Positions 18,934-23,466 of a stretch of DNA of 54,912 nt are shown here, piece by piece. The stretch is taken from contig NZ_PDNW01000023.1 in assembly GCF_002849655.1 (NCBI RefSeq), positions 1 to 54,912 on the forward strand, in the 5' to 3' direction. Under the pieces are notes generated by a model. That model was not told where the DNA came from. It made no database searches and saw nothing but the letters and a program-made list of their open reading frames with translations. The first letter of the stretch is position 1, and each line of letters begins with the position of its first letter. The DNA is from Pollutimonas subterranea (GTDB lineage: Bacteria > Pseudomonadota > Gammaproteobacteria > Burkholderiales > Burkholderiaceae_B). A program made the translations under genes and the position numbers.

Positions 18934-20049
18934 TTAAGCATGGCTGCCGATCAGGGCATTTGCCGATTGCGCCAGTACGTCTCGCCGTCCCGCCAGAACC
19001 TGCCGCCTTGCCTTCACGGCCTGCGACAAGCGTTCGAGAACCTTCACGGAAGCGTCCCAGTCAATGCAGCCGTCGGTAATGCTCTGACCGTAGACCAGCG
19101 GCTGTCCGTCCACCAGGTCCTGACGCCCGCCCACTAGGTGGCTCTCTACCATGACACCGAAAATGCGCTCGTCGCCCGCTTCGAGTTGAACGGAAACATC
19201 ATCGATCACCAAAGGCTGGTTCAAGTAGTTTTTATTGCTATTGGCATGGCTTGCGTCGACCATGATGCGCGCGCGTAAACCGGCTTTGCCCAGCGTTTGG
19301 CACGCGGCCTCGACGTTGGCCGCATCATAGTTGGGGTTTTTCCCGCCGCGCAGGATGACATGGCAGTCATCGTTGCCTACCGTGGACACAATCGCCGAAT
19401 GGCCGCCCTTGGTCACCGAAAGGAAATGGTGCGGCTGGGAAGCCGCCTTGATGGCGTCGATGGCGATCTTGATATTGCCATCAGTGCCGTTCTTGAAACC
19501 CACCGGGCATGAAAGCCCCGACGCCAGCTCCCTGTGGACCTGGCTTTCTGTGGTGCGCGCACCGATCGCACCCCAGGAAACCAGGTCGGCAATGTATTGC
19601 GGCGTGATCATGTCGAGAAATTCGCAACCGGCGGGGATGCCCATCTGGTTGACATCTATCAGCAACTCGCGCGCGGTACGCAGGCCCTGGTTGATGTTGA
19701 AGCTGCCATCCAGTCCGGGATCATTGATAAGGCCTTTCCAGCCCACGGTGGTGCGCGGCTTTTCAAAGTAGACGCGCATGATGATTTCGAGCTCGCCCTT
19801 GAAACGTTCCCGCTGTTCCACCAGGCGCTTGGCATAGTCCAGCGCGCCGGCCGTGTTGTGGATGGAGCACGGTCCAATTACAACGGCCAGTCTATCGTCC
19901 GACCCTTGCAGGATATTGTGCACGGCGTGGCGTGCGCCGTAGACGGTTGCCGAGATCTCGGTGGTGCAAGGGAACTCGCGCATAACATGTGCCGGAGGAC
20001 TGAGCTCCTTGATTTCCCGAATGCGTAAATCGTCAGTATTGTGGGTCAC
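18934..20049 (-). CDS. aroG: 3-deoxy-7-phosphoheptulonate (DAHP) synthase, AroG type
   Basis: This 371-aa class-I (AroFGH type) enzyme joins phosphoenolpyruvate and erythrose 4-phosphate in the first step of aromatic amino-acid synthesis. Signature segments are DRLAVVIGPCSIHNTAGALDY and MRVYFEKPRTTVGWKGLIND, then GFKNGTDGNIKIAIDA and HAN-type metal-site residues in MVDASHANSNK. Length fits the family. The start has CTGGAG upstream. The gene is preceded by a complete-looking attenuator: a Phe/Tyr-rich leader peptide, an antiterminator segment and a T-run terminator (20090-20227), so expression is probably controlled by charged tRNA-Phe (and perhaps tRNA-Tyr). Confidence 0.96.
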   Translation of the reverse strand: MTHNTDDLRIREIKELSPPAHVMREFPCTTEISATVYGARHAVHNILQGSDDRLAVVIGPCSIHNTAGALDYAKRLVEQRERFKGELEIIMRVYFEKPRTTVGWKGLINDPGLDGSFNINQGLRTARELLIDVNQMGIPAGCEFLDMITPQYIADLVSWGAIGARTTESQVHRELASGLSCPVGFKNGTDGNIKIAIDAIKAASQPHHFLSVTKGGHSAIVSTVGNDDCHVILRGGKNPNYDAANVEAACQTLGKAGLRARIMVDASHANSNKNYLNQPLVIDDVSVQLEAGDERIFGVMVESHLVGGRQDLVDGQPLVYGQSITDGCIDWDASVKVLERLSQAVKARRQVLAGRRDVLAQSANALIGSHA

Positions 20050-20089: not shown

Positions 20090-20118
20090 AAAAAAAGCCG
20101 CCTAGCGTCGCTGGCGGC
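20090..20118 (-). terminator. Attenuator terminator in the aroG leader
   Basis: On the minus strand GCCGCC (20118-20113) pairs with GGCGGC (20102-20097), with further pairing of AGC/GCT inside, and runs into seven T residues (20096-20090). It lies about 40 bp before the aroG start codon and 23 bp after the leader-peptide stop. Its 5' arm (CCGCCAGCG, 20117-20109) can instead pair with CGCTGGTGG at 20175-20167, giving a 9-bp antiterminator with one G-U pair. Confidence 0.85.
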
Positions 20119-20140
20119 TTTTTGGGAATTTGCTTCTTTT

Positions 20141-20227
20141 TTACTGCGTACAACGCTTCCCTTCCTCCACCAGCGGCTTTGGAAAACTAAAAAAATAAAA
20201 GAAAAAGTAGGAGGAAGCGCGAGACAT
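20141..20227 (-). CDS. aroG leader peptide (28 aa, Phe/Tyr-rich)
   Basis: ATG at 20227 opens a 28-codon frame ending TAA at 20141. It contains SYFFFYFFSFP: seven Phe and two Tyr within eleven codons, much like the E. coli PheL run. The codons directly after (PLVEE) contain the antiterminator segment CGCTGGTGG (20175-20167). When charged tRNA-Phe is scarce, a ribosome stalled in the Phe run would leave that segment free to pair with the terminator arm, letting transcription continue into aroG. The ATG lies at the position where transcription would begin from the promoter at 20234-20263, so the leader may be translated leaderless. The peptide itself is probably not functional. Confidence 0.8.
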   Translation of the reverse strand: MSRASSYFFFYFFSFPKPLVEEGKRCTQ

Positions 20228-20233
20228 GTTCAG

Positions 20234-20263
20234 ACTCTAGCACAGAGTCCTACCACCTGCCAA
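20234..20263 (-). promoter_or_regulatory. Candidate sigma-70 promoter of the aroG leader
   Basis: On the minus strand TTGGCA (20263-20258, five of six matches to TTGACA) and TAGAGT (20239-20234, four of six to TATAAT) are 18 bp apart. Transcription would begin six to seven bases further, at or next to the leader-peptide ATG at 20227. Confidence 0.5.
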
Positions 20264-20380: not shown

Positions 20381-20428
20381 TAGCGGCGAGTCCTCGTCAT
20401 ACATCCGTCTAATAAACAGGACATGCAC

Positions 20429-21283
20429 ATGAAAAATAAAACCACCACCCTATGCACACTGGCCGCGGCGCTGCTCACGGCCGCGGCAACTCAAGCGTCG
20501 GCCGCCACCCTCGCCGAGGTCAAGGAACGCGGCTACATCCGTGTAGCAGTCGCCAATGAGATTCCCTACGGCTACATGGACATGAGCGGCGAAGCCAAGG
20601 GCGCGGGCCCGGATGTCGCCAAGCATGTCATGAAGCAACTGGGTATCGACGAGATCAAGTGGGTCACCACCAATTTCGGTTCGCTGATTCCCGGCTTACG
20701 TGCAAACCGCTTCGATATGGTGGCCGCTGAAATGGCTATTCTTCCGCAACGATGCAAAGAGGTTCTATTCTCGGAACCGAACAGTTCGTATGGCGAGGGA
20801 CTGCTGGTGGCCAAGGGAAATCCTGACGACATCCACACCTTCGAGGCATTTTCCAAGAACGACAAGAAAATTGCCATCATGGCCGGCGCCGACCAGCTTG
20901 AAATGCTCCAGGCCCTGGGCGTACCTTCCAATCGCATGGTCACCATATCGAACAATGCGGACGCCATTTCCACCGTCGCCACGGGCCGTGCAAGCGCTTA
21001 TGCCGCCACAAGCCTGACAGTCAGCGAGCTGGCCGGAAAAAGCGATAAAGTCGAACCGGCAAAGAACTTTACCGATCCCGTGATTGACGGTGAGCCCGCA
21101 CGCAGCTGGGGCGCGTTCACCTTTACCCAGGATTCACAGGACCTGCGTGATGCGGTGAGTGCCGAACTGGCAAAGTTCAAGAAAACGGACGGCTGGCAAA
21201 CAATCATGTCGAACTATGGTTTCAGCCCAACCGATGCGAAAGAATCTTCCAGCAAGACCACTGAGCAGCTGTGCGCCGGTTAA
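20429..21283 (+). CDS. ehuB: Ectoine/hydroxyectoine ABC transporter substrate-binding protein EhuB
   Basis: This is a 284-aa periplasmic binding protein of the polar-amino-acid (SBP family 3) type. The signal peptide covers roughly residues 1-25 (KTTTLCTLAAALLTAAATQA, then SAA). The mature start LAEVKERGYIRVAVANEIPY leads into the bilobed domain with GYMDMSGEAKGAGPDVAKHV. This resembles EhuB of the ectoine importer. The second of two ATGs is chosen because ACAGGA lies seven bases upstream. It is followed by two permease genes and an ATPase gene, and the operon converges on the ectoine synthesis genes, which supports the substrate. Confidence 0.88.
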   Translation: MKNKTTTLCTLAAALLTAAATQASAATLAEVKERGYIRVAVANEIPYGYMDMSGEAKGAGPDVAKHVMKQLGIDEIKWVTTNFGSLIPGLRANRFDMVAAEMAILPQRCKEVLFSEPNSSYGEGLLVAKGNPDDIHTFEAFSKNDKKIAIMAGADQLEMLQALGVPSNRMVTISNNADAISTVATGRASAYAATSLTVSELAGKSDKVEPAKNFTDPVIDGEPARSWGAFTFTQDSQDLRDAVSAELAKFKKTDGWQTIMSNYGFSPTDAKESSSKTTEQLCAG

Positions 21284-21326
21284 GCGGCACCCTTTCCTTT
21301 CTTGAAGAAATTGGATCGAAACCCTG

Positions 21327-21998
21327 ATGGAATGGCTCAGTTACAGCAAGCCGCTGCTTGAAGGCGCCTGGGTGACCGTACAGCTGACGCTGTATTCCAC
21401 CGTGCTAGGCGCCTTCTTTTCATTTGCGTTCGGCATTGGAAAACTATCCAGGAACTGGCTGGCCAAGGGGATTTCGATTTTCTTTATCGAAATCTTCCGC
21501 GGCACGTCGCTGCTTGTACAGCTCTTCTGGCTCTATTTCGCCCTGCCGATACTGGGCCAGGCCATCGGCATAGACCTGCGCCTGCCGCCTGTGGTGGCGG
21601 GCACATTGGCCCTTGCGCTCAACATCGGGGCCTATGGCGCTGAAGTCGTGCGAGGCGCCATCCAGGCGGTACCTCATTCGCAGCATGAAGCGGCGAAAGC
21701 CCTGGACTTCACTCCGCGCCAGACCTTGTGGCGCATTTTGCTGCCGCAAGCGGTTCCGGAGATGATGCCCAGCTTTGGTAATCTTGCCGTACAGAACCTG
21801 AAAGACACGGCCCTCGTTTCCCTGATCAGTTTGGGCGACCTGGCTTTTCGAGCCGAACAAATCCGGAATTTCACCCAGGACAGCACCACCATCTATACGC
21901 TGCTGCTGTTCATGTACTTCGGCATGGCATTGGTCTTGACCGCCATCATGAAATTGCTGGAGCGCTCGGTCGGGCGCTGGCGTTCGGGGAGGGCCTGA
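21327..21998 (+). CDS. ehuC: Ectoine/hydroxyectoine ABC transporter permease EhuC
   Basis: This 223-aa inner-membrane permease of the His/Glu-type amino-acid family has about five helices. The EAA loop that touches the ATPase reads HEAAKALDFTPRQTLWRILL, and FIEIFRGTSLLVQLFWLYF is the typical early segment. It pairs with EhuD to form the channel. It begins 43 bp after ehuB and ends two bases before ehuD. Confidence 0.88.
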   Translation: MEWLSYSKPLLEGAWVTVQLTLYSTVLGAFFSFAFGIGKLSRNWLAKGISIFFIEIFRGTSLLVQLFWLYFALPILGQAIGIDLRLPPVVAGTLALALNIGAYGAEVVRGAIQAVPHSQHEAAKALDFTPRQTLWRILLPQAVPEMMPSFGNLAVQNLKDTALVSLISLGDLAFRAEQIRNFTQDSTTIYTLLLFMYFGMALVLTAIMKLLERSVGRWRSGRA

Positions 21999-22000
21999 CC

Positions 22001-22693
22001 ATGCTTTTTGGCATAGAGTGGGACACCACCAATAACTGGCTGTTCGCCGGCTCCATACTGCCCATACTGCTCAAGGGCCTGGTCATTACCATCCAGGCGA
22101 CCGTTTTGGGTTTTGCAGTGGCCGCCGTGCTTGGCCTGGTACTGGCCGCACTGAAATCGGCGCGGCTGCGCATCATATCGTGGCCGGCCCGCCTGATTAC
22201 CGAGTTCATTCGCGACACGCCGCTATTGATCCAGCTGTTTTTCCTTTACTACGTGCTGCCGGAATACGGTATTGTGCTGCCGGCATTCCTGACGGGAGCA
22301 CTTGCCCTGGGCGTTCAGTACAGCGCCTACATGTCGGAAGTGTACCGGGCCGGCATCGAGTCGGTGTCCCGAGGACAAACGGAAGCGGCCCGCGCGCTGG
22401 ACCTATCCGCATTCCGGACTTTTTTCTTCATTATTGTGCCGCAAGCCATTCCCCGTATCGTACCGGCCCTGGGCAACTACCTGGTGTCCATCATGAAGGA
22501 TGTGCCCGTATTGTCGGTCGTGTCGGTCCTTGAAATGCTGAACGTGGCCAAGATTATCGGCGACCGGACCTTCAACTACCTGATTCCCCTCTCGATGGTG
22601 GGCGGCTTGTATCTCGTGCTCACCTTGTTTGCCTCGGGTGCCATACGATACCTGGATACCCGCCTGCCCAAGCAAGGACTGCCCCTGCGATGA
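22001..22693 (+). CDS. ehuD: Ectoine/hydroxyectoine ABC transporter permease EhuD
   Basis: This 230-aa inner-membrane permease is homologous to EhuC: LITEFIRDTPLLIQLFFLYY as the family segment and QTEAARALDLSAFRTFFFII as the EAA loop. It forms the heterodimeric pore with EhuC. Its end overlaps the ehuA start by 4 bp, so the two are translationally coupled. Confidence 0.88.
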   Translation: MLFGIEWDTTNNWLFAGSILPILLKGLVITIQATVLGFAVAAVLGLVLAALKSARLRIISWPARLITEFIRDTPLLIQLFFLYYVLPEYGIVLPAFLTGALALGVQYSAYMSEVYRAGIESVSRGQTEAARALDLSAFRTFFFIIVPQAIPRIVPALGNYLVSIMKDVPVLSVVSVLEMLNVAKIIGDRTFNYLIPLSMVGGLYLVLTLFASGAIRYLDTRLPKQGLPLR

Positions 22694-23466
22694 ATGAACC
22701 GATTATAAAATTCGACAATGTCGTCAAACGCTTTGGCGACATCACCGTGCTGGACTCCCTGGATTTCCAGGTTCAGAAAGGTGAAAAAGTCACCATTATC
22801 GGCCCATCCGGGTCGGGTAAATCTACAGTGCTGCGCATCCTGATGACGCTGGAAGCCATCAATGAGGGCGTCATACACGTGGCCGGCAAGCCGCTCTGGC
22901 ACGAGTACAAGGACGATAAGCTGGTACCCGCCAGCGAAGGCCACCTGCGCGAGATGCGCAAGGAAATGGGCATGGTGTTCCAGCAGTTCAACCTGTTTCC
23001 GCACATGACGGTACGCCGCAACGTGACCGAAGCGCCTGTGCAAGTGCTTGGCCTGTCCAAAGCCGAAGCCAACCAGCGCGCCGAAGAATACCTTGACCTG
23101 GTGGGCCTGTCCGATCAGGCGGACAAATTCCCCAGGCAGTTGTCGGGAGGACAGCAACAAAGGGTCGGCATCGCTCGCGCGCTGGCCATGCGTCCAAACA
23201 TCATGCTGTTTGATGAGCCTACGTCTTCCCTGGACCCTGAGCTGGTCGGCGAAGTGCTGACAGTTATCCAGCGTCTGGCCGAAGAGCATGACTTGACGAT
23301 GCTGCTTGTGACACACGAAATGCAGTTCGCCAAGCAAATTTCCGACCGTGTTTGTTTTTTTGACAAAGGCAAGATTGTGGAAGAAGGTCCACCGGAAGTC
23401 CTGTATACCAGCCCCAAAGAAGAACGGACCCGCGAATTCCTGAAAAATTTCATTAATCAGGAATAA
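22690..23466 (+). CDS. ehuA: Ectoine/hydroxyectoine ABC transporter ATPase EhuA
   Basis: This 258-aa ATPase has Walker A GPSGSGKST at residues 38-46, the Q-loop MGMVFQQFNLFPHM, the ABC signature LSGGQQQRVGIARAL, Walker B IMLFDEPTSSLDPE and the switch His in LLVTHEMQFAKQ. It energises uptake of ectoines through EhuC/EhuD. It is the last gene of ehuBCDA, and a bidirectional terminator separates it from ectD. No ectoine-breakdown (eut/doe) genes follow, so import is probably for osmoprotection. Confidence 0.9.
   Translation: MNEPIIKFDNVVKRFGDITVLDSLDFQVQKGEKVTIIGPSGSGKSTVLRILMTLEAINEGVIHVAGKPLWHEYKDDKLVPASEGHLREMRKEMGMVFQQFNLFPHMTVRRNVTEAPVQVLGLSKAEANQRAEEYLDLVGLSDQADKFPRQLSGGQQQRVGIARALAMRPNIMLFDEPTSSLDPELVGEVLTVIQRLAEEHDLTMLLVTHEMQFAKQISDRVCFFDKGKIVEEGPPEVLYTSPKEERTREFLKNFINQE

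Follow-up and report, generated by a model that had tools for sequence, protein, structure and literature searches.

How does Pollutimonas subterranea control the entry into its aromatic amino acid pathway? In E. coli, aroG is under TyrR control. No TyrR-type HTH was detected in the P. subterranea genome, the same search being positive in E. coli, one of 14 control genomes. This genome (100% complete) has a single AroG match, no match to type II DAHP synthase and nothing over the cut-off for type I-beta DAHP synthase; a sub-threshold match to the latter turned out to be 3-deoxy-8-phosphooctulonate synthase. Since no other DAHP synthase was detected in the genome, the leader analysed here precedes the only entry enzyme found.

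Organization of the aroG locus

The analysed window is a stretch of 54,912 nucleotides, contig NZ_PDNW01000023.1 of assembly GCF_002849655.1. On its minus strand, a promoter-like site, a short leader ORF, a terminator and aroG follow one another in this order. The aroG gene (18934-20049, minus strand, GTG start) codes for a type I-alpha DAHP synthase (NCBIfam AroG, 586.4 bits for a cut-off of 568). The predicted promoter (20234-20263) consists of TTGGCA, an 18-nt spacer and an extended -10 box (TG before TAGAGT), with 9 of 12 matches, and ends 6 nt before the leader ATG. The 28-codon aromatic frame originally predicted at 20227-20141 was recovered by translation, which gives MSRASSYFFFYFFSFPKPLVEEGKRCTQ followed by the stop codon. 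Its codons 7-15 (20183-20209) read Tyr Phe Phe Phe Tyr Phe Phe Ser Phe, that is, Phe or Tyr at eight of nine positions, and the peptide has no Trp. Among the 1107 short ORFs (10-60 aa) of the window, only this leader and one other have at least eight F/Y/W within 12 codons.

Segment 2, CGCTGGTGG (20167-20175), is the 5' side of the antiterminator, as indicated by pairing and codon identity. It lies within the leader ORF, beginning 7 nt past the last Phe codon, and the ORF, stop included, extends 26 nt beyond it. Segment 3, CCGCCAGCG (20109-20117), serves in pairing and folding both as the 3' side of the antiterminator and as the 5' arm of the terminator. The 9-bp antiterminator of the original prediction, running from 20175-20167 to the terminator 5' arm, was thus confirmed as a duplex of eight Watson-Crick pairs and one G-U. 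An inner helix was added to it: GGGAA (20157-20161) pairs with TTCCC (20128-20124) in the folded truncated leader, the latter arm (20124-20128) being supported by the folding and the family alignment. A T-run terminator is indeed present where it had been placed (20118-20090), with a slightly longer stem than predicted; the intrinsic terminator, made of segments 3 and 4 and the T run, covers 20090-20123, according to folding and covariation.

On the plus strand, the divergent neighbours (20423-23466) code for two ABC permeases, one ABC ATPase and a binding protein that is EhuB-like (ectoine/hydroxyectoine); nothing evident ties them to aroG.

Distribution among relatives

The genome-collection scan covered the best 80 of 590 confirmed aroG stretches. 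An aromatic leader with a terminator was found at 77 of these 80 named loci; together with the rarity of such ORFs in the window, this upholds the earlier claim that the order of the parts is hard to obtain by chance. The three loci without an aromatic leader are L042, L048 and L061, and in the first two no terminator was found either. Bordetella, Achromobacter, Massilia, Xanthomonas, Stenotrophomonas, Devosia, Kaistia and Bradyrhizobium are among the best 80, genera which we take to represent beta-, gamma- and alpha-proteobacteria. Two loci titled Mycobacterium (L026) and Melainabacteria (L061) have a proteobacterial-looking aroG, preceded by a leader in L026; contamination or mislabelling is possible. 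Of 29 further loci of the family, five duplicate leaders already present at named loci. The leader ORF was found at 28 of the 29, and the exception, L106, is cut off by a contig edge. At L110 the leader lies further upstream, yet it is matched by the covariance model described below.

In total, 95 leaders were analysed (47 from the family, 48 from other groups), drawn from 110 loci plus the window after removal of L001 (the window itself), L042, L048, L061, L106, L110 and ten identical sequences, L110 being dropped for a terminator beyond the search range in spite of its match. Fifty-four of the 95 aroG leaders, picked for diversity, were used for alignment A2 and covariance model R1. The structure of R1 comprises the terminator and a small hairpin, so that its hits test sequence and terminator, not the antiterminator. 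R1 scores the window at 129.7 bits, and the genome itself has no other convincing site; a second match (G000:C7, E 0.35) lies behind another gene and is nothing more than a terminator.

R1 matches were found in 194 of 250 family genomes at E 0.01 and AroG in 242, match positions being compared for only some of these genomes; under the strict filters used, the other 56 genomes have no R1 match. At the level of the phylum, 63 of 397 genomes have an R1 match at E 0.001 and 220 have an AroG-type match, 165 of these 220 being without an R1 match before aroG under the same kind of strict filters. Among the 63 phylum matches, 55 precede aroG (41 with AroG directly downstream and 14, window included, adjoining the AroG position), and the other eight precede pheA (6) or pheS (2). 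An example of the pheA/pheS leaders is MKTLSFFFAFFFTFP, within a slightly longer frame. All eight pheA/pheS loci pass as Rfam Phe_leader, so that a model built from aroG leaders only rediscovers known Phe attenuators, a strong positive control for function. As a whole, the conservation check proposed with the original prediction came out in its favour, the aromatic run and the two pairings being found again in relatives inside and outside the family.

Such a distribution also bears on the idea that the terminated short RNA works chiefly in trans, either as a small RNA or by encoding a functional peptide, aroG control being secondary. A trans role is reported for the Sinorhizobium meliloti trp leader (PMC7298713 and PMC10117765). 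The aroG element, however, stays with its gene, all 63 phylum matches lying before aroG, pheA or pheS, and we consider a mainly trans-acting RNA very unlikely. An added trans role of the leader RNA, next to control of aroG in cis, would be compatible with this linkage.

Nine family genomes have two AroG matches. In one of these cases the gene is split; in the other eight, the second copy is 47-59% identical to the AroG of the window. Seven of the nine first matches have an aromatic leader, and two (L168 and L170) do not. No aromatic leader was seen upstream of second copies in several family genomes (L171-L178).

Two further observations were made on single genomes of the family. In at least one of them, G004, a good extra copy of the aroG leader (L180:1023-1164) stands before an ORF (1209-2036) which starts with a few AroG-like residues and then turns into tRNA thiouridylase MnmA near profile position 91; this ORF is either a chimera or an assembly join. 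The 0.8-Mb genomes G007, G048, G078, G101 and G121 have kept AroG without a listed R1 match, a pattern that would fit a loss of attenuation in the course of genome reduction.

Leader peptide and codon usage

Forty-three of the 47 family leaders could be anchored in a codon-identity alignment (four could not). Seven of its columns are 88-100% aromatic, and several of these exchange Phe and Tyr, one having 28 F and 15 Y. For six codons in or just after segment 2, the identity of codons for the same amino acid is 0.86-1.00, the value in aroG at the same loci being 0.50; a few later leader columns are also high (0.84 and 0.87). The end of the peptide, PLVEEGKR, is largely kept in the family, and it is altered or absent in other groups. 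Judging from the alignment, the conservation of the leader reads as a constraint on codons and RNA rather than on the peptide.

These data speak to a first rival explanation, in which the nascent leader peptide would arrest the ribosome by sensing a free amino acid, and not through slow codon reading. TnaC is a known case of nascent-chain arrest of this type. The largely conserved peptide end in the family would suit an arrest peptide. Against it stand the loss or change of this same end in other groups, the conservation of segment 2 at the nucleotide level, silent sites included, and the F/Y exchange at several aromatic positions, which suits codon reading. Arrest by the nascent peptide is thus highly improbable, and reading of the codons is the probable signal.

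The Phe codons of the run are TTT in 194 cases and TTC in 35, the figures for aroG at the 43 family loci being 93 and 228. More generally, the control run (window 20183-20209) prefers TTT and TAT in the 43 family leaders, and aroG of the same loci prefers TTC and TAC. This preference may keep the run unstructured or tune its sensitivity.

Concerning Trp, three of the 47 family leaders have codons within the counted cluster (in L014 and L017 they lie just beyond the run), compared with 31 of the 48 leaders from other groups. Of 41 phylum leaders preceding aroG, 36 contain Trp at some point of the peptide. From its codons, we take the element to be an aromatic attenuator, with the Trp codon missing from most leaders of the family. 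The original prediction had proposed Phe attenuation in this lineage: the attenuator is conserved, but it is not specific to the lineage, and 'Phe attenuation' is, on codon content, too narrow a name, because the leader reads Phe and Tyr, and in many other groups Trp as well.

The leader ORF could also be seen as a T-rich by-product, the hairpin being a plain terminator of upstream transcription. T runs alone do yield Phe codons, yet they do not explain the Tyr and Trp codons, nor an ORF that recurs across many groups with its start, its stop and its F/Y/W run. Segment 2 is moreover kept at silent sites, and upstream of the second aroG copies of eight family genomes no aromatic ORF is present (8 of 8; best 3 of 12). 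A plain terminator with an accidental ORF can hardly be believed in view of these four points.

Predicted promoter and start of the leader transcript

All 47 family leaders have an extended -10 box (TG.TA...T, with 4 or more of 6 matching) whose end lies 6-9 nt upstream of the ATG. Because of this short distance, the leader mRNA is probably leaderless, with a predicted start at the ATG or up to about 3 nt before it (a 5' UTR of 0-3 nt in the window). Twenty purine matches, considered as Shine-Dalgarno candidates in the family leaders, were the AGGA of TAGGAT itself and were discarded. In leaders of the Massilia/Duganella type, TATAGT is found farther upstream.

Terminator, antiterminator and putative 1:2 hairpin

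The terminator has 94.1% of its alignment cells paired and four pairs changed on both sides, values of which neither is reached by any of 500 shuffles. The antiterminator with its inner helix has 87.6% of cells paired in the 47 family leaders (17 of 500 shuffles are as high), compared with 31.8-57.4% for slid controls; the inner arms reach 81.7%. Within the family alignment, its covariation does not go beyond that of shuffles, because the helix hardly varies there. In the 54 diverse leaders, 81.8% of antiterminator cells are paired vs. 16.7-53.2% in slid versions, and the covariation score is reached by 0 of 500 shuffles; the number of double-changed pairs, equalled or exceeded in 411 of 500 shuffles, does not stand out.

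At the level of single leaders, shuffling of the antiterminator duplex, with the placement of segment 2 corrected, gave p <= 0.05 in 53 of 95 leaders (0.005 for the window). Compared with synonymous recodings, a test in which segment 2 is misplaced in leaders with a late aromatic residue, the antiterminator is among the best 5% in 11 of 95 leaders, and for the window 32 of 300 recodings are as good. The 1:2 hairpin, a candidate anti-antiterminator, does poorly against shuffles on the whole, with p at most 0.05 in 17 of 95 leaders and no excess over shuffles in the other 78 (window 0.37); 60.2% of its cells are paired, and its covariation score is reached by 5 of 500 shuffles and is near that of slid versions. 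In folding, masking segment 1 raised the antiterminator. Folded as a whole, the leader shows no significant gain in stability over shuffles (z -1.15; 24 of 200 do as well), and for this reason the argument is built on the order of the parts, their conservation and the codons rather than on overall stability.

Folding and proposed mechanism

A check proposed with the original prediction was to fold the transcript for mutually exclusive hairpins. Even with a stalled ribosome, the terminator wins at full length in 46 of the 47 family leaders, which calls for a kinetic switch. The expected exclusion does appear in truncated transcripts, where the RNA is cut ahead of the 3' arm of the terminator and a ribosome footprint is assumed. 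With the ribosome in the run, the antiterminator has a probability >0.5 in 47 of 47 family leaders and 40 of 48 others; without ribosome, in 28 of 47 and 14 of 48; with the ribosome at the stop codon, in 36 of 47 and 14 of 48; and with the ribosome on segment 2, in none of the 47 and none of the 48. The preference for the antiterminator in 36 of 47 family leaders when the ribosome is at the stop leaves part of the basal termination unaccounted for. Segments 2 and 3 may be blocked by a ribosome sitting between them, a state that lies outside the folding model.

Taken together, the sequence analysis makes it very probable that a ribosome-mediated transcription attenuator controls aroG. The mechanism is classical attenuation. 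Transcription would begin at the leader ATG or within about 3 nt of it, and a ribosome would trail RNA polymerase along the leader ORF. With scarce charged tRNA-Phe or tRNA-Tyr, this ribosome would halt in codons 7-13, leaving segment 2 free to pair with segment 3 once the latter is made, before segment 4 exists; the 2:3 pairing would prevent the terminator, and aroG would be transcribed. When Phe and Tyr are plentiful, the ribosome would pass through segment 2; segments 3 and 4 would then pair and transcription would stop. A shortage of Phe or Tyr would in this way stall the ribosome and probably switch on the aromatic pathway. The parts, their order and conservation, the nucleotide constraint on segment 2 and the covariation of the terminator are read directly from the sequences, and folding favours the antiterminator with the run masked; from these we infer the start site, the ribosome stalling and the read-through in the cell.

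In a broader reading, to which we give about an even chance, one homologous family outside Rfam would control the aromatic entry enzyme across alpha-, beta- and gamma-proteobacteria through a leaderless leader peptide, its run integrating Phe, Tyr and, in many lineages, Trp, with codon swaps retuning specificity. The attenuator predicts how bacteria with a single DAHP synthase, in which no TyrR-type regulator is detected, would set the flux of their aromatic pathway. It would give the amino-acid attenuators of Rfam one more widespread family and, if leaderless, another example of attenuation that does without a Shine-Dalgarno site. The codon run varies naturally, some leaders having Trp and others not, and this variation allows a direct test of signal choice by attenuators.

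Comparison with known systems

Rfam RF01859 (Phe_leader) scores 32.7 bits on the window, below its gathering cut-off of 55, and no Rfam family was found at its cut-off on 12 aroG loci from several groups, that of the window included. Sub-cut-off matches to RcsR1 and nse_sRNA were set aside as terminator look-alikes, and ten loci from other groups had no Rfam match at E 0.05. A description of this aroG attenuator was not found in searches of an open-access library; the 2004 survey of proteobacterial attenuators (Vitreschak et al.) may list it. Attenuation is listed for aroF in a Shewanella study (PMC2659441).

Among the systems described, the uORFC-13-1 motif is a Phe uORF before aroF, described in PMC8632094 from Acholeplasma and environmental sequences only, with 24 representatives. 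Going by this description, it resembles the aroG leader in having a Phe-coding uORF and a terminator ahead of a DAHP synthase gene. PMC6429828 mentions, among five genomes, two F- and Y-containing uORFs associated with shikimate genes; the aroG leader shares with them the F and Y codons and the linkage to the shikimate pathway. According to PMC7298713 and PMC10117765, the attenuator RNA trpL/rnTrpL of S. meliloti begins at the trpL ATG. The leader peptide would stand at the 5' end of the RNA in both systems, as reported there and as predicted for the aroG leader, whereas the target of trpL is trpE.

The closest counterpart in Rfam is Phe_leader itself, with which the aroG leaders have in common a Phe-rich leader ORF, mutually exclusive hairpins and a GC-rich terminator, and the recovery of eight Phe_leader elements by R1 suggests, short of proof, a common descent of the two. 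They differ in their target, which is aroG here and not pheA or pheS, in the codons read, which in the aroG leader are Phe and Tyr (and often Trp), and in the position of the ORF, which here crosses segment 2.
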